This document shows positions 1,941 to 13,228 of a stretch of DNA of 13,228 nucleotides, piece by piece. The first letter of the stretch is position 1. Each line of letters opens with the position of its first letter. A program made the position numbers and the translations under genes. The notes below the pieces were generated by a model. The model searched no databases. It had not been told where the DNA came from and worked only from the letters and a program-made list of their open reading frames with translations. Source of the DNA: an uncultured Clostridium sp. (lineage in GTDB: Bacteria; Bacillota_A; Clostridia; Lachnospirales; Lachnospiraceae); contig CAMWKN010000008.1 of NCBI GenBank assembly GCA_947174825.1, forward strand, positions 1-13,228. The letters are read 5' to 3'.

Positions 1941-4900
1941 CTATCTATCACTTAATATTTCCTGTAATGTTTCAAATAATACTTTGACATCAATTGGTTT
2001 TGCAATATGTCCGTTCATACCTGCCTGTAGTGCCTCCTGCTTATCTTCCTCAAATGCATTGGCTGACATTGCCACAATTGGAACCGCTGCCAATTCCTTA
2101 TTTTTCAATTTGCGTATCGCCTTGGTTGCCTCATATCCATTCATTACAGGCATCTGAATATCCATCAGAATCAGCTGATAATATCCCGATTCTGAGTTTT
2201 CTAACATCTCTACAGCAATCTGACCATTGTCGGCAATCTCCACCTGAAATCCTGCCTCAGTCAGAATCGCCTCTGCAATCTCCTGATTCAGATCCAGATC
2301 CTCTGCCAGCAGAATGCGACCAGCATGTGTAACAGCCATTTCCTCCTGTGATGATTTATTTTTCGGCTGCTCCTGATCCCCTGTCTCCTGTAACGATTTT
2401 CTGATTTCTGAGAAAAACAGCGGTTTATTACAAAATGCAGCAACCCCAGCCTCTCTGGCATCTTCTTCCAAACCAGACCAGTCATAGGCAGACAAAAGAA
2501 TAACCGGATTGTCCTCTGACAATTCCTCCCGAATCTGTCTGGTAAGATCAATTCCATCCTGATCTGGCAGCATCCGGTCAATAACATAGACACGGTAACT
2601 ATCTCCCTGGGTCTTAGCCTTCTGCGTCTGCTGAATTGCCTCCTGTGCAGATACCGCCTGATCTGCATGCATTCCCATTCGCTTTAACATACTGGCTACG
2701 CTGTCACAAGTAGTGGAATTACCATTGACAACCAACGCTTTGTAATTCTGATATTCCGGTAGGATCTGAGCTTCTTTTGCCTCCGTATTTTTATGGAATG
2801 TGAAATTCAAAATCACCTCTGTTCCAACATCCTGTTCACTCTGAACCGCAATAGTACCATTCATCAGCTCCACAATATTTTTGGTAATCGCCATCCCCAG
2901 TCCGGTTCCCTGAATCTTATTAATCGTGGAATTCTGTTCCCTCTCAAATGGATCAAAAATACGGGCTACAAACTCCTCACTCATGCCAATTCCATTATCC
3001 TGAATATAAAACTCGTATTCTGCGCTATCTTCTTGCTCCGCTGGTCGTTCCGTAACCCTGATATATATTTTGCCACCTTCTGGAGTATATTTAATCGCAT
3101 TGCTGAGCAAATTCAGCAATACTTGATTTAAGCGCAGTTCATCACAGTGAATCTCTTCATCCCATACATCCACAATATCAACACTTAGCTCCATCTGTTT
3201 CTTACGAGCGTCTGCCTGTATAATATTGCACAGACCATGCACGATCTCAGATAAATTGCAGGGTTTTTCATCTAATTGCATTTTGCCGCTCTCGATCCGG
3301 CTCATATCTAAAACATCATTAATCAGATTTAATAAATGATTTCCCGATGTCATAATTTTATTCAGATACCCCTCTACCTGCTCACTGTTGTTAAGATGAG
3401 TCAATGCCAACGTGGTAAAGCCCACAATGGCATTCATTGGGGTTCGAATATCATGGGACATATTGGACAGAAAAACACTCTTAGCCTTATTTGCCTTGTT
3501 CGCTTCCAGCAATGCTTCCTCCAACAAAGCATTCTGCTCCATTTCACTGCGGATCTCTTCATCCACACTACGGAATCCAATGACAATGCCATGGTTTTCT
3601 TCCCAAACACCAGTGCGTACTGCCCGCATCTGGTAGTATTTTAGCTCGCCATCCCGAAAAATACGGTAATTCACATAATACGAACTTTTCTGTTCCAGTT
3701 TTCCCCTTAGATTATCTACAGAGCAGGCAAGACGCAATACCTCCTGATCACTCTCCAGAACAAAAGTCTGAATATACTGTTCCATACTCTCTTGCAACAT
3801 AATTTCTCCGCTAAAAATATTCTCCAGATGATAGCCGTCATCCACCCGCAGAGAACTTCCCTTACCCGTATCCAGATCAAAGAAACAAACCAGATTAAAA
3901 TCAATACTCAATGCCTGCACCAATTCCATCTGTCTCTTTTCATGTTCCATCCGTTCCCTTTTTTCCCGCAATTTCTGGGTAGTACAATCCAATAGAAAAC
4001 GCTGGTAAAATAATTCCCCATTCTCCTGCAATAGCTTCACATTCCCCATCACATGCAGGATCTCTCCATTCTGATGCTTTACTCGATATTCAACGTTGAC
4101 ATTGTCTCCCTCTTCCTTCAGTTGCTTGATACAAGACCGTAACTTCTCCTGATCTTCCTCCATAACGGATGGTGCAATCATGGCAAATCCTGCCTTCTCT
4201 AGCTCTTCCCGGGACTCGTATCCCAGAATCTTTAATGCTGCCCTATTCACACTGATAATACGGGATCCATCCACTGTATGACGCATCACACCACAATCCA
4301 AAGTAGTAAAAATCCGCTCCAATGTAACATTCTTTTGTACAATTTCCTCTTCATACGCCCGTTCCTGGGAAATATCAATCCCCACGCCAACGGTTCCCAT
4401 CACGCTTCCATCCAGATCATATAATGGAGATTTATAGGTAGTCAGAATGCGTTCTCCCCGTCCGGTCTGAATAATTTCTTCACTGACATAGGTCTTACGT
4501 TTACTCATAACTTTCTGCTCGGATTCAATGCAGGCCGGATCATCCTGCTCCACATCCCAGATATAAGCATGCCCGCGTCCTTCCACCTGCTGCTTTTTCT
4601 TATTAACGGTACGACAGAAACTATCGTTTACCTTTTCATGAATACCATCTTTGTCCTTGTACCAGACCAGGGATGGAATATTATTGATGGTTGCCTCTAA
4701 ATACTGGCTGGTCTGCCAGAATTCTTTCTCCTGCCGATACGACTGCTGCCATCTCTGGAAACGGAAACGTATCTCCGCATCCGACATGGGCATTGTCCAG
4801 ATATCATTTATTTCTGCCATCCATTCTGTACACTGAGCAATTACTTCTTGTTTCGCCAATACAATCAGCTGGCAGTCTGGTGTCTTATTCTCCACCAGTT

Positions 4901-5096
4901 CCTCCAACGACTCAAGTACATCCTGATTCTCCATATTGACCAAAATTACATCTGCCTCAGCTGCATGCTTCGCATCTGGTCTATCACTGTTAGAAAATGC
5001 ATGACTAAAATGGTCAAGAGGAGTAATTCCCTTGACAACTTCCCACACCGGATCCTCTGATCCAACATAATAAAATTGAATATGGCAATGGTACAT
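1941..5096 (-). CDS. Soluble hybrid sensor histidine kinase with two C-terminal receiver domains
   Basis: A 1051-aa cytoplasmic hybrid kinase with no membrane segment. Domains in order: an N-terminal receiver-like fold (about 1-120) with N54 where the phospho-acceptor Asp is expected; a PAS domain (about 130-250, starting at ATINNIPSLVWYKDKDG); a second PAS (about 257-375); a third PAS-like region (about 390-512); HisKA with FLSNMSHDIRTPMNA, His548; HATPase with N657/N662/N666, DNGIG (700-704), FDPFER (714-719) and GTGLGMA (730-736). Then receiver 1 (about 785-903, D840, K891, but the N-terminal acidic pair is replaced by VVNGNS) and canonical receiver 2 (about 926-1049, AED, D979, AKP K1033). 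The start has a strong site, GGGAGG 7 nt upstream. This layout, with no separate output protein, fits phosphorelay to an HPt or an unlinked regulator. The signal sensed is unknown. Confidence 0.95.
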   Translation of the reverse strand: MYHCHIQFYYVGSEDPVWEVVKGITPLDHFSHAFSNSDRPDAKHAAEADVILVNMENQDVLESLEELVENKTPDCQLIVLAKQEVIAQCTEWMAEINDIWTMPMSDAEIRFRFQRWQQSYRQEKEFWQTSQYLEATINNIPSLVWYKDKDGIHEKVNDSFCRTVNKKKQQVEGRGHAYIWDVEQDDPACIESEQKVMSKRKTYVSEEIIQTGRGERILTTYKSPLYDLDGSVMGTVGVGIDISQERAYEEEIVQKNVTLERIFTTLDCGVMRHTVDGSRIISVNRAALKILGYESREELEKAGFAMIAPSVMEEDQEKLRSCIKQLKEEGDNVNVEYRVKHQNGEILHVMGNVKLLQENGELFYQRFLLDCTTQKLREKRERMEHEKRQMELVQALSIDFNLVCFFDLDTGKGSSLRVDDGYHLENIFSGEIMLQESMEQYIQTFVLESDQEVLRLACSVDNLRGKLEQKSSYYVNYRIFRDGELKYYQMRAVRTGVWEENHGIVIGFRSVDEEIRSEMEQNALLEEALLEANKANKAKSVFLSNMSHDIRTPMNAIVGFTTLALTHLNNSEQVEGYLNKIMTSGNHLLNLINDVLDMSRIESGKMQLDEKPCNLSEIVHGLCNIIQADARKKQMELSVDIVDVWDEEIHCDELRLNQVLLNLLSNAIKYTPEGGKIYIRVTERPAEQEDSAEYEFYIQDNGIGMSEEFVARIFDPFEREQNSTINKIQGTGLGMAITKNIVELMNGTIAVQSEQDVGTEVILNFTFHKNTEAKEAQILPEYQNYKALVVNGNSTTCDSVASMLKRMGMHADQAVSAQEAIQQTQKAKTQGDSYRVYVIDRMLPDQDGIDLTRQIREELSEDNPVILLSAYDWSGLEEDAREAGVAAFCNKPLFFSEIRKSLQETGDQEQPKNKSSQEEMAVTHAGRILLAEDLDLNQEIAEAILTEAGFQVEIADNGQIAVEMLENSESGYYQLILMDIQMPVMNGYEATKAIRKLKNKELAAVPIVAMSANAFEEDKQEALQAGMNGHIAKPIDVKVLFETLQEILSDR

Positions 5097-5133
5097 ATCC
5101 GTTCCTCCCTGTTCATCCGTTCCTTATTCGTTC

Positions 5134-5277
5134 TTATGCGTTCCAGATGGATGCCATCATCTCTAACAATAATGGTACATCCATCGGTTTCGTCAAATGT
5201 GCATGCAAGATATCTGCTAAATTACGCTCAAACTCTAAAATATGTTCATTATTGGCTTCTGTCCAAGAAATTTCCAA
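5134..5277 (-). pseudogene. Relic of a response-regulator receiver domain (C-terminal end only)
   Basis: Between the promoter at about 5.3 kb and the kinase start there is an open frame of 47 codons reading from a TTG (5277) to TAA (5134). Its translation ends in NLADILHAHLTKPMDVPLLL EMMASIW. This is the characteristic receiver-domain C-terminus (xAHLTKPxDxxxLLexl), with the conserved Lys-Pro pair. The N-terminal receiver core, including the phospho-acceptor Asp, is missing, and an in-frame stop lies directly upstream of the TTG. It resembles, but is not a copy of, the end of receiver 2 of the downstream kinase (HIAKPIDVKVLFETL). AAGGG lies 6 nt before the TTG but almost at the predicted transcript start, so translation is doubtful. 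I read it as the remnant of a deleted regulator; a translated leader ORF is the alternative. Confidence 0.6.
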
Positions 5278-5291
5278 TACTTACCCTTATA

Positions 5292-5320
5292 ATTTTATCA
5301 CAAAAAAATCGGTCTGTCAT
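5292..5320 (-). promoter_or_regulatory. Predicted sigma-A promoter for the hybrid kinase
   Basis: On the minus strand ATGACA (5315-5320) and TAAAAT (5292-5297) are separated by exactly 17 bp, with a TGA extension before the -10 (TGn motif). The transcript would begin near 5285, run through the receiver relic and continue into the kinase gene at 5096. The promoter lies just past the end of the DUF3592-like gene. A T7 run lies in the spacer. Confidence 0.6.
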
Positions 5321-5332
5321 TACCTGAGATAC

Positions 5333-6010
5333 TTACTTATAAAATGCAAAATAGAACGCAAGGATTCCAAAAGCAATGCAGGCTATCCCCACGAATTTCT
5401 GTACTTTCAGACTTGGATCTATTGGAACAAAAGCCTCTTCTGGTTTGGACGGATTAATCCATATCAGATATTCTTCCCCCTCCTCCGGCAAAGATCTCCT
5501 TTGCCAATTCGAACGCTCAGAAGGCTGATAATAATAGTCTTTGCCATCATATGAATATTTCCATGTGATATCATAAACCCTTTCTCTGCTCCATACCCCC
5601 CATACCGCTCTAACTTCAGTACACTGTGCCTGCACCGGATAGGTGCAGTGTTTCTTTTTCCAGCTCTCCTCATAACAGGCACACAACAGGAGAATCAATC
5701 CTGCCACAATAAAGGAAACACAAAATAATTTCCGTAATATCTGATCATTACTGCGGATACCAGCCACAAAAGGCACTTCTGCATAAGAAAGGGAAACAAC
5801 CATGATTCCCCCTCCTAATACCAGCATAAGCATTAAGCCCCAGGATCCTGTAATTCCGTTCTTTATGATTCCCAGTAATCCACAGCCAAAAAAGATAAAT
5901 CCACTCAACGCCAGTACCATAAATGGTTGTGTTGCAGCAAAATAAATAATTCCTACCGTAAGTGCCAGGAAAATGACAGTGCCTAAAATGGTTTTTGTTC
6001 GATCGCTCAT
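5333..6010 (-). CDS. DUF3592-like multi-pass membrane protein
   Basis: A 225-aa membrane protein. Four hydrophobic segments (about 7-24, 29-50, 56-75, 94-113) precede a soluble stretch of about 85 residues (118-200), and a last segment spans 203-222. The soluble part (YDITWKYSYDGKDYYYQPSE ..., then LPEEGEEYLIWINPSKPEEAF) has the pattern of DUF3592 proteins: a beta-rich domain followed by a 'G..y.i.vnP.nP.ea' turn. Function of this group is unknown. The start ATG at 6010 has AGGAGG 9 nt upstream and a good promoter at 6074-6103, so it is probably its own transcription unit. The family call is by pattern, not by search. Confidence 0.72.
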   Translation of the reverse strand: MSDRTKTILGTVIFLALTVGIIYFAATQPFMVLALSGFIFFGCGLLGIIKNGITGSWGLMLMLVLGGGIMVVSLSYAEVPFVAGIRSNDQILRKLFCVSFIVAGLILLLCACYEESWKKKHCTYPVQAQCTEVRAVWGVWSRERVYDITWKYSYDGKDYYYQPSERSNWQRRSLPEEGEEYLIWINPSKPEEAFVPIDPSLKVQKFVGIACIAFGILAFYFAFYK

Positions 6011-6046
6011 AATGTTTGTCCTCCTAGCGGGATGGGGGATTCCAGA

Positions 6047-6075
6047 ATAGAATCACTCTTATGAAACGATTCTAT
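6047..6075. promoter_or_regulatory. Dyad overlapping the -10 of the DUF3592-like gene (possible operator)
   Basis: ATAGAATC (6047-6054) and GATTCTAT (6068-6075) are perfect 8-bp inverted copies, 13 bp apart. The right arm overlaps the last two bases of the predicted -10, and the left arm lies in the start of the transcript. This position suits a repressor site or a 5'-leader hairpin. No regulator is known. Confidence 0.4.
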
Positions 6076-6103
6076 CTTAGCATCGCACTGGCAGACGTGT
6101 CAA
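6074..6103 (-). promoter_or_regulatory. Predicted sigma-A promoter for the DUF3592-like gene
   Basis: On the minus strand a perfect TTGACA (6098-6103) is followed after 18 bp by TAAGAT (6074-6079), with TGC directly before it (extended -10). It lies in the 136-bp gap between the subtilase stop and the membrane-protein start. The long untranslated leader of about 55 nt contains the right place for the inverted repeat noted separately. Confidence 0.62.
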
Positions 6104-6146
6104 ATTATCTACGAGGAATATAGTCCCTCTCCATTCCCTATCCATT

Positions 6147-7817
6147 TCACAAAGGCAGACTATCCTTCAAACACAACGCTCCCCACCCCGCCGTAATATC
6201 CGGCAGCTGCAGCTGCCCCGGCAGCCTTCTGGCCCCATTTATCAGATACGCCTTCACTTTCTCCCCATACAAATAAGGATCATTTCCCCTGACAATCCCC
6301 CACTCCATCATTAACGCCGCTGACCCGGCTACGAAAGGAGCTGCCATAGAGGTTCCTGTATGAAAGGTATAACCACCTCCCGGCGCTGGACACTGAATAT
6401 CCACCCCCGGTGCCACCAGATCAATGCCCAGTCTGCCGTCTGCCGTTCTGCCTCTGCCTGAAAAAGGTGCTACCGCATTCGTAGCGGCATCATAGGCGCC
6501 TACCGATATCACTTTGTAGGTGGTGGAAGGTATGGGCATGGTGGTTTCTATAGCCGGACGAATAAATCCGGTGGAACTGCCCACTACCTCCGATCCGGAC
6601 ATCCACAGCTCCACTCTGCCATCCCGTATCACTACCGGTTCCATCACAATCGTCCATACCCCGGATTCCACAAATCCATTATATCCAGGACGGAATCGAA
6701 TATATATTTCCTGAATCAGACGGTATGGCGATGGTTCCCCATAATAGAGCTGCACCGTACCATCTGAGCTTTCCCCTGGCACATCTGGTACCCGGTAACG
6801 CCGCCCTGAGGGCGATACCACGGAAATCTGGATCTGATCCACATATTGTTTCCAGATCTGTACCGTAAATCCCAGTTCCCCCTCCGCCACCGCAAATTGA
6901 ATTTCTTCTGTCTGCCACTGTCGTAAATCTGCTGCCGCATGGTGACGTTTGTCTCCCTCATTTCCCGTGGCAATCACAATCACATTTTTCCAGACTCCAT
7001 TTAATTCCGTAATGAAGTTTTCAAATAAAGATTCCCCATTGTGGGGTCCGTAATTATTTCCAAAACTCATATTGATACTGACTGGCATCTGCAGCTCCAA
7101 AGCTTTGCGCAGCACATAATCCAGTCCCATCATCACTTCCGTCGTCCGGGAAAATCCGTCCCCACTGTTCCCCAACTTCACAATCAGCAGTTCGCTGCCT
7201 ATGGCTATCCCCCGGTATCTCATGGCGGTTGATCCCCTGCCATTGCCGGCGGCAATCCCTGCCACCGCTGTCCCATGCCCGGTACGGCTGTCTGTGGTGG
7301 GAACAATGCGGCTGCGTTCCCCAATGGGTGCCGCTAATGCTTCATCAATATCTGCCGCTGTATATTCTGCCCCTACATCATACCCAGCAGGCATTCTGCC
7401 CTGTGCCCGGTCTGCTGGCACGGTCTGATCCCATAGATAGCGGATTCTGGTGCTACCATCCTCATTCCGGAAACTCGGATGTGCATAGTCGATACCGCTG
7501 TCTAATACTGCCACCAGTACACCGGCACCGGAAAGATTCTCTGACCGGCTGTCTGGCATTCCTGCCATCCCACCCTGTCCCGGTTCTGCCTGTACCTGAT
7601 TCACACAGGAAATACTTCGTCCATTCTGCAAACCAAAAAACAGCGTCTCCGGAGGTTCTATGTATTCTACCTCCGGCAACGCTGCCAAATCCGATAACGC
7701 CTGTTCCGGTAATGTCACAATTGCATATTGATGAAATAATTCCACTACAGTACTGTCCGCAAATTCGGACATTGCTTCTCTTAAACTGCCATGATACCGC
7801 ACAATCACTCTTGCCAT
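6147..7817 (-). CDS. S8 family subtilisin-like serine protease, Csp-like (germination protease type)
   Basis: A 556-aa subtilase with the full catalytic set: D106 in AVLDSGIDYAHP, H181 in GHGTAVAGIAAG, oxyanion N286 in ATGNEG and S490 in HTGTSMAAPFVAGSAAL. An N-terminal prodomain-like region (about 1-85) precedes the catalytic domain. There is no signal peptide. Between N286 and S490 sits an inserted beta domain (about 300-415; ISVVSPSGRRY ... GVWTIVMEP), as in clostridial Csp proteases, whose jelly-roll insert stabilises the fold. Csp proteases are packed in spores and activate the cortex hydrolase SleC during germination; that role here is inferred. Other cytoplasmic or spore subtilases of the family cannot be excluded. 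GGAG lies 6 nt before the ATG at 7817. No convincing promoter was found. Base composition is visibly GC-richer than the genes to its right. Confidence 0.9.
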   Translation of the reverse strand: MARVIVRYHGSLREAMSEFADSTVVELFHQYAIVTLPEQALSDLAALPEVEYIEPPETLFFGLQNGRSISCVNQVQAEPGQGGMAGMPDSRSENLSGAGVLVAVLDSGIDYAHPSFRNEDGSTRIRYLWDQTVPADRAQGRMPAGYDVGAEYTAADIDEALAAPIGERSRIVPTTDSRTGHGTAVAGIAAGNGRGSTAMRYRGIAIGSELLIVKLGNSGDGFSRTTEVMMGLDYVLRKALELQMPVSINMSFGNNYGPHNGESLFENFITELNGVWKNVIVIATGNEGDKRHHAAADLRQWQTEEIQFAVAEGELGFTVQIWKQYVDQIQISVVSPSGRRYRVPDVPGESSDGTVQLYYGEPSPYRLIQEIYIRFRPGYNGFVESGVWTIVMEPVVIRDGRVELWMSGSEVVGSSTGFIRPAIETTMPIPSTTYKVISVGAYDAATNAVAPFSGRGRTADGRLGIDLVAPGVDIQCPAPGGGYTFHTGTSMAAPFVAGSAALMMEWGIVRGNDPYLYGEKVKAYLINGARRLPGQLQLPDITAGWGALCLKDSLPL

Positions 7818-7978: not shown

Positions 7979-8021
7979 TAACAGTCTGAATGAATATGAC
8001 ATCCATTAGACTGTTATTTTT
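7979..8021 (+). terminator. Terminator-like hairpin pointing along the plus strand (orphan)
   Basis: TAACAGTCT (7979-7987) pairs perfectly with AGACTGTTA (8008-8016). The stem extends inward by AATG/CATT with a one-base bulge, and the right arm is followed by a run of Ts (8017-8021). It has terminator form only on the plus strand, yet no plus-strand gene is visible to its left. Confidence 0.45.
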
Positions 8022-8052
8022 CTCTGTCAGAGGTCTAATCGTTTTTTCTTGC

Positions 8053-8105
8053 AAAAAGCATATCGGAGCAAAAGCCTAATAGAAATCAGACCTTTGCCCC
8101 GATAT
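8053..8105 (-). terminator. Intrinsic terminator of the secreted-protein gene block
   Basis: On the minus strand ATATCGGGGCAAAG pairs with CTTTTGCTCCGATAT, a stem of about 14 bp with one G-U pair and one bulged base. It is followed within 3 nt by five Ts (8053-8057). It lies about 130 nt past the stop of the 146-aa gene, the last gene of the right-hand block. Confidence 0.65.
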
Positions 8106-8232
8106 ATATTTTTAATGTTTTTACATGGACAGACACATAAACAAAATTTGATTTTTCTAGTCCCTGTCCATATTGTTTCATTTCTGGCATATACATCAAA
8201 CGCTACAAAACTTCATCAATTGCAACTTCTCA

Positions 8233-8673
8233 CTAACTGTAATATACTTGTATTCTTACCGTTACAGTAGACACAGGTTTTATGTTTCCATTATATGATA
8301 CCCCACTGTTTTTAATCCATATTGTCCATGTGCCATATGGATCTTCCCCATTAAATACTGTTGTAGTAATGGTGTCACTCGGAATTGGACCCGCGAATGA
8401 CGATGTAGTCCCTTCCGGACTTTCAACATAAAGCGTATAAGGGTCTGAACCACTAGATACAGTACAACGTAATTCGACCTTCGTTACAGACTTATTATCT
8501 CCTACAGTTCCTGATGTCAATTTGCTTTTCGTTGAAATCCCACCACTATAAGCATTAAGTTTAACTGTCGTCTTACTGAAACTGCTCGCCGCTAATACGG
8601 GTGTCACAGACATTAAACAAGCCATCATGCAAGCTACAACAACCGTAAAAATTCTTTTTGAAAATATCTTCAT
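8233..8673 (-). CDS. Small secreted protein resembling a free-standing P-domain (beta sandwich)
   Basis: A 146-aa exported protein. KRIFTVVVACMMACLMSVTP with VLA-AS forms a clear Sec signal peptide, probably cut after A28. The mature part of about 118 aa is Ser/Thr-rich and beta-patterned. LYVESPEGTTSSF (81-93) and DPYGTWTIWIKNSGVSYNG (111-129) match the two landmarks of proprotein-convertase P-domains ('L.V.SP.GT' and 'G.W.L.V.D...G'). Such domains usually sit at the C-terminus of secreted subtilases, but here no protease is attached. No cell-wall anchor is present. A very good ribosome site (AAAGGAGGT, 7 nt spacing) precedes the ATG. It is the last gene of the block, 57 bp after the 227-aa gene, followed by an intrinsic terminator. 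P-domain assignment is by pattern and unverified. Confidence 0.78.
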   Translation of the reverse strand: MKIFSKRIFTVVVACMMACLMSVTPVLAASSFSKTTVKLNAYSGGISTKSKLTSGTVGDNKSVTKVELRCTVSSGSDPYTLYVESPEGTTSSFAGPIPSDTITTTVFNGEDPYGTWTIWIKNSGVSYNGNIKPVSTVTVRIQVYYS

Positions 8674-8730
8674 AAGTGAAACCTCCTTTAAAGTATGTTT
8701 CTGAAGTATATGCCATATAAAATATATCTG

Positions 8731-9414
8731 TTATATTTTCATATCTACAGATACCTGTGTTACTTTATTGTCTGACTTTTTCAAATTAGCCTCAACTGAT
8801 TCTCTCGTAATACCATCCAAAACACCTGATTTAATAGGTTTTCCTACTTTCCAATTTGGATCTGCCTCCCTCACCGCATTCAAAAATGCCTGCCGATATG
8901 CGCGTTCATACCGCTCTAAGGTATACCCGGCTGCCAATCGGTCTTTTTTTTGCATTTTACGATACAGATTTGTATATACATCGGAACGCTTTGTTGTGTC
9001 ACCATTTTTGACACCATTTTCACGTAGAAATTCTTTTTTCGTCAACTCAAACATCTCATCCCGACTGCTCTCAGGGATAGAGATAATACGTTTCCTGCTT
9101 TCTGCACTCTCATCTGTTACCAAAAGACCTGCTAATCCATTATTCGGATTAATATAATCCCCATCCTTGTCATAATCTTTCATCAGATTTTTTATGCTCT
9201 CAATATTCGTATACATTGCACCGTTTGCATTTGACATCATCTGTTTCAATGCAGCTTTGTATTGCTTGCTGTTTGTGTCAATACCTGCAGCTTTTAATTG
9301 TTTCTGCACAGAACTACTGTTTAACTGTGACAACTGAAAACTACCGGGAATAGTTGGCTTTTGTATCCTAAACATATTTTGAAACAAAAAACTATAATCT
9401 GTAATCCTTGCCAT
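8731..9414 (-). CDS. Hypothetical protein, 227 aa, with EF-hand-like calcium loop
   Basis: I do not recognise a characterised family. The start MARITDYSFLFQNMF is reminiscent of openings seen in uncharacterised Lachnospiraceae proteins. No signal peptide or membrane segment is visible. Residues 80-91 (DYDKDGDYINPN) fit an EF-hand or dockerin-like loop: Asp at positions 1, 3 and 5 and Gly at 6, but Asn in place of Glu at 12. The rest is charged and mostly helical (116-185 Lys/Arg/Glu-rich), and the last 40 residues look like strands. AGGAGG sits 8 nt before the ATG. Upstream is a 196-bp gap with the shared 22-bp motif and a 12-bp inverted repeat, so it probably heads its own transcription unit with the 146-aa secreted protein. 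Function unknown. Confidence 0.75.
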   Translation of the reverse strand: MARITDYSFLFQNMFRIQKPTIPGSFQLSQLNSSSVQKQLKAAGIDTNSKQYKAALKQMMSNANGAMYTNIESIKNLMKDYDKDGDYINPNNGLAGLLVTDESAESRKRIISIPESSRDEMFELTKKEFLRENGVKNGDTTKRSDVYTNLYRKMQKKDRLAAGYTLERYERAYRQAFLNAVREADPNWKVGKPIKSGVLDGITRESVEANLKKSDNKVTQVSVDMKI

Positions 9415-9477
9415 CTCTGTGTCCTCCTAATAATATTCAGTTAGTTGTGCATATTTCTGTTTTACCATTTCAATACG

Positions 9478-9507
9478 ATAAAATTTTACATTGAAAGCCC
9501 TGTCAAG
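9478..9507 (-). promoter_or_regulatory. Possible promoter for the 227-aa and 146-aa genes, inside the inverted-repeat arm
   Basis: A perfect TTGACA (9502-9507, minus strand) lies in the promoter-proximal arm of the 12-bp inverted repeat. TTTTAT (9478-9483) follows at 18 bp but matches the -10 consensus only moderately. It would place transcription start near 9470, about 55 nt before the ATG. The weak -10 makes this tentative. Confidence 0.35.
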
Positions 9508-9540
9508 GCTAATCTTCAATAAAATTCAGCCTTGACAGGA
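9500..9540. repeat. Perfect 12-bp inverted repeat upstream of the 227-aa gene
   Basis: CCTGTCAAGGCT (9500-9511) and AGCCTTGACAGG (9529-9540) are exact inverted copies with a 17-bp loop. On the minus strand it is preceded at once by AGGAGGT (9541-9547), a perfect Shine-Dalgarno sequence with no start codon at normal distance. It is followed by GGCTTTC, not a convincing U-tract, so a terminator is possible but weak. It could be an attenuator, an operator overlapping the TTGACA, or the terminator of the upstream gene. Confidence 0.6.
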
Positions 9541-9570
9541 ACCTCCTAAGAAAACTTATTTTTAGTGTGA

Positions 9571-9592
9571 TGTCATCACTTTCCAACACCAA
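9571..9592 (-). promoter_or_regulatory. Shared 22-bp motif, copy A (upstream of the 227-aa gene)
   Basis: On the minus strand this reads TTGGTGTTGG followed by AAAGTGATGACA. It is identical at 21 of 22 positions to copy B at 12038-12059. A second common block, AGTTTTCTT (9548-9556 here), follows after 14 bp, against 15 bp in copy B. It lies 157 bp before the ATG of the 227-aa gene and 19 bp past the stop of the 297-aa gene. Conservation outside coding sequence at two sites suggests a regulator binding site or a conserved leader element. Confidence 0.6.
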
Positions 9593-9610
9593 ATTGTTTC
9601 GTGTTCCACA

Positions 9611-10504
9611 TCAATCTTTCCAGAATCTGTTCGATAACTCAAATGTCAAAATTCCAGACAGAAAATTTTGCTGCTTAGCCATAAAGTTCCTTAGTCCAGC
9701 CAGAAAAGATTCTTTGGAAGAAATATCTATACCATCAAAATGTGCTGGCAGCTCTTTGTCCTTAACCTCTTTTTCAAAATACTTATTACTTTTTTCCTCA
9801 TATTCTTCATGAATTTTTGGCGTATCCTTTAATGACTTGATATACCAATCTGTAAGGAATTTTATTTGATTTAAAGGTCTGTCTTCATTGCTGCTTTCTG
9901 CACCAATCTTTTGATACTCATCATATGCTGCACTATCCATATATCTCATCATATCCAAAGTATTCGTAGTTGCAACAAGGTTACTTCCATGCCCCAAATA
10001 ACGGGATTTTGCAACACCATAATTCATATTGCCATTTTGGTCAGCCTTTCCTGCACTTGCCAATTTTGCTATGGTACTCATGGCATCCAAGAATTTCTCC
10101 CTATGTTCTTCCGGAATGAAATTTTCAGATGCATACTCTGCTTTTTTCATCCCCAACGCAATATTGGCCTGCCGCTCTTCTTCCGTTAAAGAAGATGTAT
10201 TTTCCGTCAGAAAATTCTGCCGGATAATACCATATACATAGATTTGTTCTTCTTTACTACAGCCTTCTACGGCAGTCGCAACAGCTTTGTCTGTCTTATA
10301 GATACCACAGTACTCCGGCAAAGCGATTCTTCTGTCAAAATGTTGTATCTCCTTCTCAAAGCGTTTCTGTGCCTCATCACTGATCTGTAAAGATGCAGCA
10401 ATTTCTCCATCTCCCTTTTTAGGAGGTACAAAGCCATCTTTCCTATTTATATTTTTCTGGAAAGCAGGCTCTTCAATACGATGGTGAATATTTGCTATTC
10501 TCAA
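9611..10504 (-). CDS. Hypothetical protein, 297 aa, helical, TTG start
   Basis: I do not recognise the family. I place the start at TTG 10504, giving MRIANIHHRIEEPAF. AAAGGAG lies 8 nt upstream, and no ATG in frame has a comparable site. There is no signal peptide or membrane segment. A polar, probably disordered N-terminus (1-40) leads into ISDEAQKRFEKEI (41-53), then a long, mainly helical body (84-150 and 183-255). GHGSNLVATTNTLD (171-184) is a loop-like, Gly/Asn-rich stretch, and the C-terminus SFLAGLRNFMAKQQNFLSG (266-284) could form an amphipathic helix. Proteins with a short basic start and an 'IS.EA' turn are common among small flagellar or secreted clostridial proteins, but this is only a resemblance. 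It lies 64 bp after the 465-aa secreted protein gene, probably in the same transcript. Confidence 0.75.
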   Translation of the reverse strand: MRIANIHHRIEEPAFQKNINRKDGFVPPKKGDGEIAASLQISDEAQKRFEKEIQHFDRRIALPEYCGIYKTDKAVATAVEGCSKEEQIYVYGIIRQNFLTENTSSLTEEERQANIALGMKKAEYASENFIPEEHREKFLDAMSTIAKLASAGKADQNGNMNYGVAKSRYLGHGSNLVATTNTLDMMRYMDSAAYDEYQKIGAESSNEDRPLNQIKFLTDWYIKSLKDTPKIHEEYEEKSNKYFEKEVKDKELPAHFDGIDISSKESFLAGLRNFMAKQQNFLSGILTFELSNRFWKD

Positions 10505-10568
10505 TATTATTACTCCTTTCAAATGGAATAACTCAAATACCTGAAACATCTCCAAACATCAAACTCTA

Positions 10569-11966
10569 TCAGAAAGTATCAACATATGCCAAGTGGAAAA
10601 TGGTTTCGCTATCACGTACACTAGTATTATCACTTACTACTACAGTAACACCACACACATCAAAATGATGAGTATGCGTTCCTACGGCATCGTCCTCCAC
10701 ACCAATAGCAGGAGGTAAATCTATTACCATTTCAAATTTACCCTCTGAATTTGTTATAGCAAATCCTGTCCTTGTTGCATTGGAAGATGTATTATTGGCC
10801 TCCCAAGCAGGACTATAATATAATCCATCAACATATGTAGCTTCCGCTGCATAACGCTCTTTTGTTGTTGGATCTGTAGCATATGCTACGCCATAAATTG
10901 TTAATGGTCCTGAACCTGCCTGAAAATGCGTTCCATATCCAGTATATGTTGCCGTCTTATTTAATCCATGCTTACTTTTCAAATCTGTTATTGTTATACC
11001 AGTAGCCTTTAATAATGGCAAAATCGTAAATGTATAGTTTTGAATATCTGAATCATCAAATTCATCCATGGAATTGGCATTACATACACGAATATAATAT
11101 GTTCCTGTGGATACAGTAACTCTATTGCCGCTACCTACCCTTTTCATTTGATATCCTGAAGATGCAATGTTTTGATATACCTCAACAGAACACTTATTCA
11201 CAGAATCAGTAGTAGCCGTCATAGAGAGCTTGTCATAAATTCTGTTACTTGGTATTGTGATTTTATACCAATCATTATCAACTGGTGAACTTAAGTTTCT
11301 TGCAGTGACTGACGCACCATCTGTTCCAAAGGTAAAAGCTTTCGCCTGCGATACATTTTCATCAATTTCAAATGAATCACATGCATTGCTGACAGTATAA
11401 TCAAGTGTAAATGATTCGCTAATACTTCCGCCTTTGGATGACCTTACATATAAATAATAGGTCGCTGTATCTCCAGATGTGATATATCCCAATGCCTCTG
11501 GCAATGTTCCATTGGTTCCGTTGATATTTGTAACATATTCAGAACCAACCAAAATATATCCTTCCGCATTTAATAAATACAAATCATAATCTAAATCGGG
11601 ATTTGCTGGTGTGGTTAATTGAGCCTGCAAATATACACCAGCAGGTATGCTAAGACCGTAAATCAATGCATCACCCGTTTCATTCAGATAGTCACTTGTT
11701 GTTCCAGCTATAACTGTTCTGCTCTTAAAATGTTTCACATCGGACTTGTCAAATTCGACTTTCTCGCCCACTGCCTGTGCATCACAGTCCCCTGCTGAAT
11801 CAAATTCTGTAATCTCCACAGGTTCCTGTTCCTTAATTTCAACCTGCGCATTGTCATTACCCTGTGTGTTTGTTGCCGCACTTGCTGTGTTAATGTTCAT
11901 CGGCAATGCTGTTGTACATACTAAGGCAAGTGTTAATAAACCAGAAATAATTTTACCTTTTCTCAT
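10569..11966 (-). CDS. Secreted protein with two PPC-like beta domains
   Basis: A 465-aa exported protein. MRKGKIISGLLTLALVCTTA ends in ASA-AT, a Sec signal peptide cut after about A30. A short acidic linker (35-75) precedes two domains of bacterial pre-peptidase C-terminal (PPC) type. The first, about 85-193, has YLQAQLTTP, LDYDLYLLNAEG and ATYYLYVRSSKG. The second, about 197-316, has VDNDWYKITIPS, CSVEVYQ and GTYYIRVCNAN. The last about 150 residues (317-465) are beta-patterned but not recognised, with a HTHHFD cluster at 431-436. PPC domains normally trail secreted peptidases; no catalytic domain is present here. There is no LPXTG or transmembrane anchor. GAGG lies 10 nt before the ATG at 11966. 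The gene sits 325 bp after agrB, with the shared motif copy B in between. Confidence 0.82.
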   Translation of the reverse strand: MRKGKIISGLLTLALVCTTALPMNINTASAATNTQGNDNAQVEIKEQEPVEITEFDSAGDCDAQAVGEKVEFDKSDVKHFKSRTVIAGTTSDYLNETGDALIYGLSIPAGVYLQAQLTTPANPDLDYDLYLLNAEGYILVGSEYVTNINGTNGTLPEALGYITSGDTATYYLYVRSSKGGSISESFTLDYTVSNACDSFEIDENVSQAKAFTFGTDGASVTARNLSSPVDNDWYKITIPSNRIYDKLSMTATTDSVNKCSVEVYQNIASSGYQMKRVGSGNRVTVSTGTYYIRVCNANSMDEFDDSDIQNYTFTILPLLKATGITITDLKSKHGLNKTATYTGYGTHFQAGSGPLTIYGVAYATDPTTKERYAAEATYVDGLYYSPAWEANNTSSNATRTGFAITNSEGKFEMVIDLPPAIGVEDDAVGTHTHHFDVCGVTVVVSDNTSVRDSETIFHLAYVDTF

Positions 11967-12291
11967 CTTCTTAATTCCTCGCTTTCATTTTGTGTTTTAG
12001 TTTCTGACAAATAAAGAAAACTCCGTGTTCTTAATATTGTCATCACTTTCCAAGACCAACAAAGTTACAATATGTTAACTATAAACCACCCCTTTCCTTT
12101 AACTTGCAGCCAGCCATGAGCAAAACTCTATACACCAAGTATTTTTGCAGTTTTGAAAAACACGGCAAACTCCATTGTTACACTATTTTTATAGAAACGA
12201 CTGGTCTCAAATAGTATATTTAATCATTAAAATCAATAACACCAAAAGAAAACTAATCGTTATCTACCATAAAAAACACTCAAGACATGAA
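11967..12291. other. 325-bp gene-free region between agrB and the PPC-like secreted protein
   Basis: No credible coding frame is seen. It holds the shared motif copy B (12038-12059), its companion block AGTTTTCTT (12014-12022, minus strand) and an imperfect palindrome AGTTACAATATGTTAACT (12063-12080; 14 of 18 positions symmetric) just before the motif. There is a T6 run after agrB at about 12270 without a clear stem, so I cannot call a terminator for agrDB. Several AT-rich -10-like hexamers exist, none with a good -35. Confidence 0.55.
12038..12059 (-). promoter_or_regulatory. Shared 22-bp motif, copy B (upstream of the PPC-like secreted protein)
   Basis: On the minus strand this reads TTGGTCTTGG followed by AAAGTGATGACA, one mismatch from copy A at 9571-9592. 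AGTTTTCTT follows 15 bp later (12014-12022). It is 72 bp before the ATG of the 465-aa gene. A weak -35/-10 reading of the motif itself (TTGGTC, 17 bp, TATTAA) works here but not in copy A, so a protein-binding or RNA role is more likely than core promoter. Confidence 0.6.
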
Positions 12292-12885
12292 TCATAATGA
12301 ATATTTTTCCATACTAATACCAGCTAAACGTTCTTTTCCTTTTCCTAGCAAAAGAAGTATTGCAGCCATTGCAATTCCATTTGCCAAATATTTGTATATT
12401 TCTATTTCATTCCATATCAATACCAAAAAAACAACATTACCTATCATTAATAATGAAATTGCCTGTCTGCGAAACTGAACTATTTCTTCTTGCTCTAATA
12501 TCCTATTTTCATTCCCTATCGGAGCCCATAACAATACAGCAATATCAGCAAAAAACAAGCAAAGAAGGATTATCCAGAATGGCAAAAATATTCTATTCAA
12601 TATACATAACATAATTACCATAGAACAAGAAAAAAAGTAACATCCTATTCGTGTATTAGCATGATAACCACCAGTTCTGGTCCTTAAAGGCATAAGTATA
12701 CATGCACTTACAAACAAACTAACAAGCGAATCTAAGACTATACCAATTACTATGTATGATGTATAATGAACCAATTTCAATAACATACATTCCAATCCGA
12801 AACTATAAATATCCAAGTCTTCTTCATTAATACAATCTTCCGAAATACTGTATTTTAATATAAAGCTTATAATATGGTTCATCAT
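12292..12885 (-). CDS. agrB: AgrB-type accessory gene regulator protein (peptide-processing membrane protease)
   Basis: A 197-aa membrane protein with about six hydrophobic segments (40-66, 83-100, 101-121, 142-157, 164-181 and neighbours). The AgrB signature is intact: RTGGYHANTRIGC (70-82), with catalytic His75 and Cys82 seven residues apart as in S. aureus AgrB (H77/C84). AgrB is a membrane cysteine endopeptidase that removes the C-terminal tail of AgrD and closes the thiolactone ring. The start ATG overlaps the agrD stop by 4 nt (ATGA), which implies translational coupling; a second ATG follows directly. agrD stands upstream of agrB here, the reverse of the staphylococcal order. No AgrC or AgrA is found in the 12 kb downstream. 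Confidence 0.93.
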   Translation of the reverse strand: MMNHIISFILKYSISEDCINEEDLDIYSFGLECMLLKLVHYTSYIVIGIVLDSLVSLFVSACILMPLRTRTGGYHANTRIGCYFFSCSMVIMLCILNRIFLPFWIILLCLFFADIAVLLWAPIGNENRILEQEEIVQFRRQAISLLMIGNVVFLVLIWNEIEIYKYLANGIAMAAILLLLGKGKERLAGISMEKYSL

Positions 12886-13034
12886 TTCTCTTTGTCCTTT
12901 TTTAGACGTTTCAATTTTTCTGGCATTTTAGGTTGATAACCAAAGAACGCACAAGCAGAATTCACCTCCTTTCTCGCATTTGCTAATGCTGCCTTTGAAA
13001 TTAACCGTAAGGCTTTCTGTTTCATTTTACCCAT
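12882..13034 (-). CDS. agrD: AgrD-type cyclic (thio)lactone autoinducer peptide precursor
   Basis: A 50-aa precursor. Residues 3-23 (KMKQKALRLISKAALANARK) form the amphipathic leader helix. NSACAFFG follows with the ring cysteine C28, then the conserved C-terminal recognition segment YQPKMPEKLKRLKK. By alignment with S. aureus CDFIM|DEVEVPKEL, the likely ring is the five residues CAFFG with a short N-terminal tail. The position of the C-terminal cut (after G32 or after Y33) is inferred. I start at ATG 13034 because GGAGG lies 7 nt upstream; a longer reading from TTG at 13073 would begin before the predicted transcript start. The product should be processed by the overlapping AgrB and exported as a quorum signal. 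Confidence 0.92.
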   Translation of the reverse strand: MGKMKQKALRLISKAALANARKEVNSACAFFGYQPKMPEKLKRLKKDKEK

Positions 13035-13077
13035 AATTACACCTCCAATATAAATTAAAAACAATATTTTCAATTTA

Positions 13078-13106
13078 TATATCGCATGATGAATTATTTA
13101 AGTCAA
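13078..13106 (-). promoter_or_regulatory. Predicted promoter of agrDB
   Basis: On the minus strand TTGACT (13101-13106), a 17-bp spacer, then GATATA (13078-13083) with TGC directly before it (extended -10). Transcription would start near 13071, giving a leader of about 37 nt before the agrD ATG. The 18-bp direct repeats end 7 bp upstream of the -35. Confidence 0.62.
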
Positions 13107-13113
13107 GAATAAA

Positions 13114-13151
13114 CGCACGAGGTACAGATTTTTCGCACGAGGTACAGATTT
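13114..13151 (-). promoter_or_regulatory. Two perfect 18-bp direct repeats upstream of the agrDB promoter (activator site)
   Basis: AAATCTGTACCTCGTGCG occurs twice without a mismatch (13134-13151 and 13114-13131, minus strand), 2 bp apart, giving a 20-bp period of about two helical turns. The nearer copy ends 7 bp before the -35. Direct repeats two turns apart just upstream of the -35 are the usual target of LytTR-type response regulators such as AgrA and ComE, whose half-sites recur at about 21 bp. The repeat sequence does not match the staphylococcal AgrA consensus, so the binding protein is inferred from geometry and context. Confidence 0.65.
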
Positions 13152-13155
13152 AACT

Positions 13156-13182
13156 AAAAAAGAGCATTTCTGCGCTGAAATG
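13156..13182 (-). terminator. Short intrinsic terminator of a gene beyond the right edge
   Basis: On the minus strand CATTTC-AGCGCA-GAAATG (13165-13182) forms a 6-bp stem, followed by CTC and six Ts (13156-13161). It would end a minus-strand transcript entering from the right. The stem is short and AT-rich, so strength is uncertain. Confidence 0.45.
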
Positions 13183-13228
13183 TAGATTGAGATTCCCGTT
13201 TTGTAAACGAATTTCACATTTTGAAAGC

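Follow-up and report, generated by a model that had tools for sequence, protein, structure and literature searches.

What could be the function of a 22-bp motif that occurs twice, almost unchanged, in the intergenic DNA of a locus with an agr system? The question arises from a stretch of 13,228 nucleotides of an uncultured Clostridium sp. of the Lachnospiraceae (the window), in which all genes concerned lie on the minus strand and follow each other leftward in the order agrD, agrB, motif copy B, the gene of a secreted-looking 465-aa protein (sec465), p314, motif copy A, a hairpin, a 227-aa gene and the gene of a secreted-looking 146-aa protein (Table 1). A first-pass annotation of this DNA had proposed that the motif precedes two transcription units and reflects their co-regulation, perhaps by the peptide signal, or else a conserved leader RNA.

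Table 1. Features of the agr-linked locus, in window coordinates
Feature	Position	Strand	Remarks
Tandem LytTR/VirR-like box	13114-13149	minus	TCTGTACCTCGTGC twice, period 20; upstream of agrD
AgrD cyclic lactone peptide precursor	12882-13073	minus	TIGR04223, E 4.6e-14
AgrB	12292-12885	minus	PF04647, E 2e-30
Motif copy B	12038-12059	minus	22-mer TTGGTCTTGGAAAGTGATGACA; end 71 nt before the sec465 ATG (11966)
AGTTTTCTT trailing copy B	12014-12022	minus	15 nt after B
sec465, secreted-looking 465-aa protein	10569-11966	minus	signal assigned by eye; modelled structure almost entirely strands
p314	9611-10507	minus	298 aa from likely TTG start (listed 314 aa from 10555)
Motif copy A	9571-9592	minus	22-mer TTGGTGTTGGAAAGTGATGACA; behind p314
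AGTTTTCTT trailing copy A	9548-9556	minus	14 nt after A
Strong hairpin between A and 227-aa gene	9493-9546	minus	core stem 9499-9539; not called as terminator
227-aa gene	8731-9414	minus	DUF3879, PF12995
146-aa secreted-looking protein	8233-8673	minus	

The repeat pair and its genes

The near-identical pair is real. The two 22-mers differ at a single position (21/22 identical), and the 16-mer TTGGAAAGTGATGACA is present exactly in both, at 9571-9586 and 12038-12053 on the minus strand. They are the sole pair of 22-mers in the window with at most one mismatch (9571/12038), and a comparable pair with its members separated by over 100 bp arose in none of 150 dinucleotide shuffles; the remaining exact 16-base direct repeats of the window all fall within the tandem box upstream of agrD. 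With up to three mismatches, TTGGAAAGTGATGACA matches the window three times against a shuffle mean of 0.18, and beyond copies A and B there is no extra match at up to two mismatches and one at three. Copy A begins 18 nt past the p314 stop codon and ends 156 nt ahead of the 227-aa gene (9414). The block AGTTTTCTT trails both copies in the window at just the spacings that had been described, and over the 60 bases past the motif the similarity between A and B is not significant (91 of 1000 base shuffles did as well).

What is encoded around the motif? For p314, no Pfam or NCBIfam family was found at E 0.01 and no fold match at E 0.001. For sec465, the Pfam search at E 0.01 was empty, and a fold search gave 148 matches at E 0.001, of which the 50 listed all had a TM-score of at most 0.25 by query length and yielded no usable name. 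Neither protein has a sequence relative in the PDB. In the literature, nothing was found on DUF3879, on the 16-mer, or on a cyclic lactone autoinducer, AgrD or AgrB of Lachnospiraceae. As a sec465-like gene is followed by a gene of the same direction in three distant genomes as well (loci L098, L099 and L106), sec465-p314 looks like a unit, and we infer that the two genes form one operon. Elsewhere in the window (6147-7817), an S8 protease with a CspB-type prodomain is encoded; its matches to the CspBA and CspC germination proteases are well below the cut-offs.

Distribution in related genomes

Is the motif peculiar to this locus? Among the 28 genomes of a genus set (the genus of genome G002), the exact 16-mer is found in three, G001, G003 and G023, at one place each. 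With one mismatch allowed, six of the 28 match, the one-mismatch places being copy B of G023 and one place each in G003, G019, G029 and G030, these last four in or beside unrelated genes; of 17 genomes reached through loci, two match the 16-mer at no more than one mismatch. In the family, the 22-mer with up to two mismatches occurs in a single one of 397 genomes (a list that excludes G001 and G003), namely in G023, at A and B only; its reversed control gave one match in these genomes, in another genome. At three mismatches, a scan of seven genomes added one place in G001, versus two matches of the reversed control. A regulator using the motif would thus have few targets, all of them at this locus, as judged from the genomes of relatives. 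The first-pass annotation had held it against its own proposal if the motif were to turn up at random places or as part of a dispersed repeat. Neither is seen in the three carrier genomes, and a dispersed repeat with many copies per genome was rejected, since the exact copies stand at one place each.

Ten stretches of viral contigs also contain the exact 16-mer; their flanks are unlike those of A and B, and they are probably chance matches. Neither sec465 nor p314 was found in viral contigs, the plasmid set gave no match, and in the phage set one record matched, covering the 227-aa gene only. In cellular genomes, p314 is detected at E 0.001 in 14 of the 397 of the family, with more than 59% identity only in G002, and at E 1e-100 in 1 of 369, which is G001 itself. 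sec465 is detected in 5 of the 397, the best match being at 37% apart from a 72% remnant in G002, and in 1 of 13 related genomes; an order-level search with a sec465 alignment at E 1e-60 returned 0 of 344, at a cut-off that also missed the known G002 remnant. In ten stretches around distant sec465 or p314 copies (L097-L106), no site scored above the weight-matrix cut-off.

Conservation around copies A and B

To which gene does copy A belong? Searching genome contigs with the 227-aa protein yielded 45 loci, of which two (L002 from G001 and L004 from G003) carry the 16-mer at up to two mismatches; in the 26 of the 45 that were inspected over up to 420 bp upstream of the homologue, the motif stands in L002 only, the rest having at least five mismatches. 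The 227-aa gene comes next after A in the window and L002 only. In L004 it is found ~4.9 kb from A, and in L055 (from G023) A is followed by a terminator-like hairpin, recognized by inspection, and then by a response-regulator gene. In L003 (from G002), p314 and the 227-aa gene are 77 bp apart and A is absent. Close copies of p314 (84-85%) exist in four genus genomes, three of which have A, so that A stands behind four of the five close copies when the window is included (window, G001, G003 and G023; absent in G002). In all four genomes with A (window, L002, L004 and L055), the distance from the p314 stop to the 16-mer is 24 nt. Copy A is thus tied to the end of p314 rather than being a feature of the 227-aa gene; the description of the motif as preceding two transcription units is right for B, but for A it fits some genomes only. 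In L004, the stretch 2074-6999 with ORFs of 899 and 297 aa separates A from the 227-aa gene, the first residues of whose product differ from those in L002.

At copy A, an invariant run of 31 nt (9566-9596) is common to the window, L002 and L055, and it ranks third in length among such runs in the 840 coding and 60 flanking bases compared. As the four-fold sites of the adjoining gene do differ, agreeing at 53 of 72 (window-L002), 58 of 71 (window-L055) and 69 of 75 (L002-L055), this run points to a constraint on A at the nucleotide level, within few lines and with transfer between them possible; L002 and L004, whose sequences agree at 97-98% in two stretches (2.2 and 3.0 kb), were counted as one line. 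An ORF of 11 residues, MWNTKQFGVGK (window 9576-9611, minus), overlaps the p314 stop with its start (TGATG) and terminates within A, and by eye it recurs in L002 and L055 as M-x-N-x-x-QFGVGK. Peptide coding alone was rejected as the cause of the invariance of A, since the synonymous positions in the invariant part of this ORF are equally unvarying.

Copy B can be followed in L055, whose order reads LytTR regulator, GHKL kinase, agrD, agrB, B, a broken sec465, other ORFs, p314, A (22/22), the terminator-like hairpin, and a second LytTR regulator with kinase. Here B keeps 20 of its 22 positions and 15 of those of the 16-mer. The entire interval between agrB and sec465 is likewise 87% identical to that of the window, so that in this one comparable locus B is without conservation beyond its surroundings. 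The sec465 homologue behind it (10277-11274) has its middle missing and a stop after 20 codons, and in L003 (2276-2521) only the last 82 residues are matched; p314, unlike sec465, is an open frame in both loci. The sequence TTGGAAAGTG ahead of the truncated sec465 in L003 was discarded as a motif copy because the upstream stretches align weakly, with 3 of 500 shuffles as good as the alignment to the window and 317 of 500 as good as that to L055. As for the trailing AGTTTTCTT, L055 keeps it after B at the same spacing. At A, L002 and L004 read AAGTTTACTT in the homologous stretch, ~90 bp further away. Past A, the similarity between relatives fades: in 1000 base shuffles, the score of the window-L055 comparison is attained by 384, that of window-L002 by 27 and that of L002-L055 by 90. 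The block is therefore firm at B and doubtful at A, where it is not demonstrably conserved.

Could two unrelated lookalike sites simply have been inherited with the locus? Both copies occur together in only one genome besides the window, B shows no constraint beyond its neighbourhood, and relatives could share A by recent transfer, as the near-identical stretches of L002 and L004 would allow. However, a pair that no shuffle reproduces, an A that is invariant where synonymous sites differ, and the presence of both copies in L055 make such an inheritance of chance likenesses very improbable.

A different view is suggested by the ends of homology. That between the window and L055 ends at 9566, and that between the window and L002 breaks at 9565, where L002 has ~90 extra bases; both breaks coincide with the 3' edge of A, and the sequence after it varies between genomes. 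The copies could then be direct repeats that flank a sec465-p314 cassette and mark past or present recombination, or A could be what a tandem duplication of the segment from B through sec465 to p314 left behind as a scar. Direct repeats do stand on either side of the unit in both the window and L055, and L002 contains integrase and MobA/MobL relaxase genes. However, homology continues straight across B, the loci compared include no excised or exchanged product, the plasmid set was empty and the sole phage-set match is confined to the 227-aa gene, and invariance across 31 nt is not what a scar would lead one to expect. We therefore regard a module boundary as unlikely, if still a serious contender.

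Does the motif act through RNA? Rfam has no match in the window at gathering scores, and the leader with B folds like its shuffles (z -0.54). For the 128-nt segment that spans A and the hairpin, folding is far stronger than in shuffles (z -5.5), which is due to the hairpin itself. L002 and L004 share this hairpin, in which one pair occurs as GC, GU and AU, and its covariation over the three sequences does not exceed the shuffle control (323 of 500); the stretch bearing it has one match each in G001 and G003 and none in G023. A hairpin follows the 16-mer of A by 28 nt in L055 (the terminator-like one), by ~30 nt in the window and by 114 nt in L002, with which L004 aligns. In L055 and L002, copy A folds into a hairpin of its own, which is absent from the minimum-energy fold of the window, and two pairs of this helix are mismatched in B (by inspection). 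As B lacks these pairs, sequence is favoured over RNA shape, and the idea of a conserved leader RNA finds no backing.

A role of the motif in RNA might still be played by its letters, if one single-stranded tag were present both in the 5' leader and at the 3' end of the sec465-p314 mRNA, where a small RNA or an RNA-binding protein could read it and so link or protect the two ends. The fixed distance of A from the p314 stop, the hairpin after A in L055, the window, L002 and L004, and the position of B ahead of the sec465 start codon agree with this; the empty Rfam search, the shuffle-like fold of B, and the helix of A that is kept neither in the fold of the window nor in B speak against it, and we consider it unlikely. 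It is quite improbable, to our mind, that a single RNA- or DNA-binding factor couples the ends of the transcript through its near-identical tags, of which the 3' one precedes a stem-loop, as a private two-ended control element.

Candidate operators beside the agr system

The best explanation, advanced tentatively and as one that falls a little short of being probable, is that one sequence-specific DNA-binding regulator, with targets confined to the agr-linked locus, recognizes both A and B. Arguing for it are the identity of the copies beyond what shuffles reach, the invariance of A, the presence of B with its trailing block in L055, the recurrence of A behind most close p314 copies, and the confinement of exact copies to this place in the three carrier genomes. 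That a protein binds the motif, that it acts on transcription, and that it is the same protein at both copies, is what we infer. Copy B occupies the stretch with the promoter or leader of the putative sec465-p314 operon and would set the transcription of that operon. From its place behind p314 and ahead of the hairpin, A could allow the same regulator to act on the next transcription unit, which is the 227-aa gene in the window and L002; alternatively, A might be a second operator, ~2.5 kb downstream, that acts on B. Against this explanation, the terminator-like hairpin of L055 begins 28 nt after A, so that it is hard to see how A could drive the gene beyond.

Against regulator sites also stand the G002 locus, where p314 and the 227-aa gene adjoin without A, the conservation of B at no more than the level of its surroundings and its persistence before a broken sec465 in L055, and the result of a tblastn search, which found no agrB or agrD relative in L002 and L004, the loci around A in G001 and G003. 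A sigma-70-like promoter was not found at either copy, as none of the 27 calls made in 8000-13228 by a simple consensus scan (-35/-10 hexamers, spacer of 16-18 nt) overlaps A or B. TTGGAA and ATGACA were considered by eye as -35 elements and rejected, as a promoter reading misfits some copies; CcpA, SigH, sigma-54 and box C sites were weighed against the motif and dropped.

Could the agr peptide act through such sites? In sequence, the tandem box ahead of agrD is unlike the motif, and scanning with its unit (up to five mismatches per unit and seven per pair, period 20-22) finds the box in the window at 13148 (minus) and misses A and B. The same box is present with one mismatch in G023 (L053, on the same contig as L055). 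From its sequence, this box, rather than the A/B motif, is likely the target of the agr response regulator. Of the proposed co-regulation, a shared regulatory site survives as the best reading, being gene-linked, kept in relatives and not dispersed, while its transmission of the peptide signal is not supported; peptide control of sec465, if any, need not use the A/B motif. LytTR regulators are encoded in L003 (one) and in L055, where two LytTR response regulators flank the unit; none was identified in the window. As LytTR sites are usually direct-repeat pairs and neither A nor B is one, a LytTR protein as their binder is disfavoured.

Weaker tandem pairs occur 158 bp (L010) and 141 bp (L014) before the 227-aa homologue, and in L008 a pair lies elsewhere (13439). 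Given the similar boxes in L010 and L014, agr may directly control some DUF3879 genes. Within 500 bp upstream of the DUF3879 gene, the sequence [GT]CCGATA[AT] is found in 9 of 44 loci (L007, L008, L009, L010, L014, L015, L016, L019 and L022, several of them closely related), where its density in these loci would predict ~2.6. We take it to resemble the -10 element of sigma-28, and a link to motility control is possible.

How do A and B relate to known systems? Paired operators of local regulators are few per locus and of the same sequence, one near the promoter and the other kilobases away. A and B share these traits, B being the copy in the putative promoter region and A the distant one; the regulator, the start site and any looping are putative here. 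If they are operators, they name the genes of a secreted-looking beta protein, of p314 and of a DUF3879 protein as standing under one regulator beside an agr system, and they would provide a short DNA bait for finding it. REP and MITE elements are dispersed repeats. A and B resemble them as short intergenic repeats; unlike them, they have exact copies at one place only in each carrier genome scanned.

The boxes of the LytTR regulators VirR, RgaR and AgrA are, like A and B, short repeated DNA sites beside agr genes and upstream of regulated promoters (PMC2838878, PMC4227749, PMC10602386; AgrA sites in PMC4227749). VirR and RgaR boxes are pairs of direct repeats, VirR boxes sit just upstream of the -35 element, and agrB1D1 of C. 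difficile is among the RgaR targets (PMC2838878, PMC10602386). Whereas such boxes are close direct-repeat pairs upstream of a promoter, A and B are each single, 2.5 kb apart and of another sequence; as a LytTR site, the tandem box ahead of agrD is the stronger candidate. Two signals can in this way be told apart at the locus, the agr box before agrD and a second, private site in the form of A and B.
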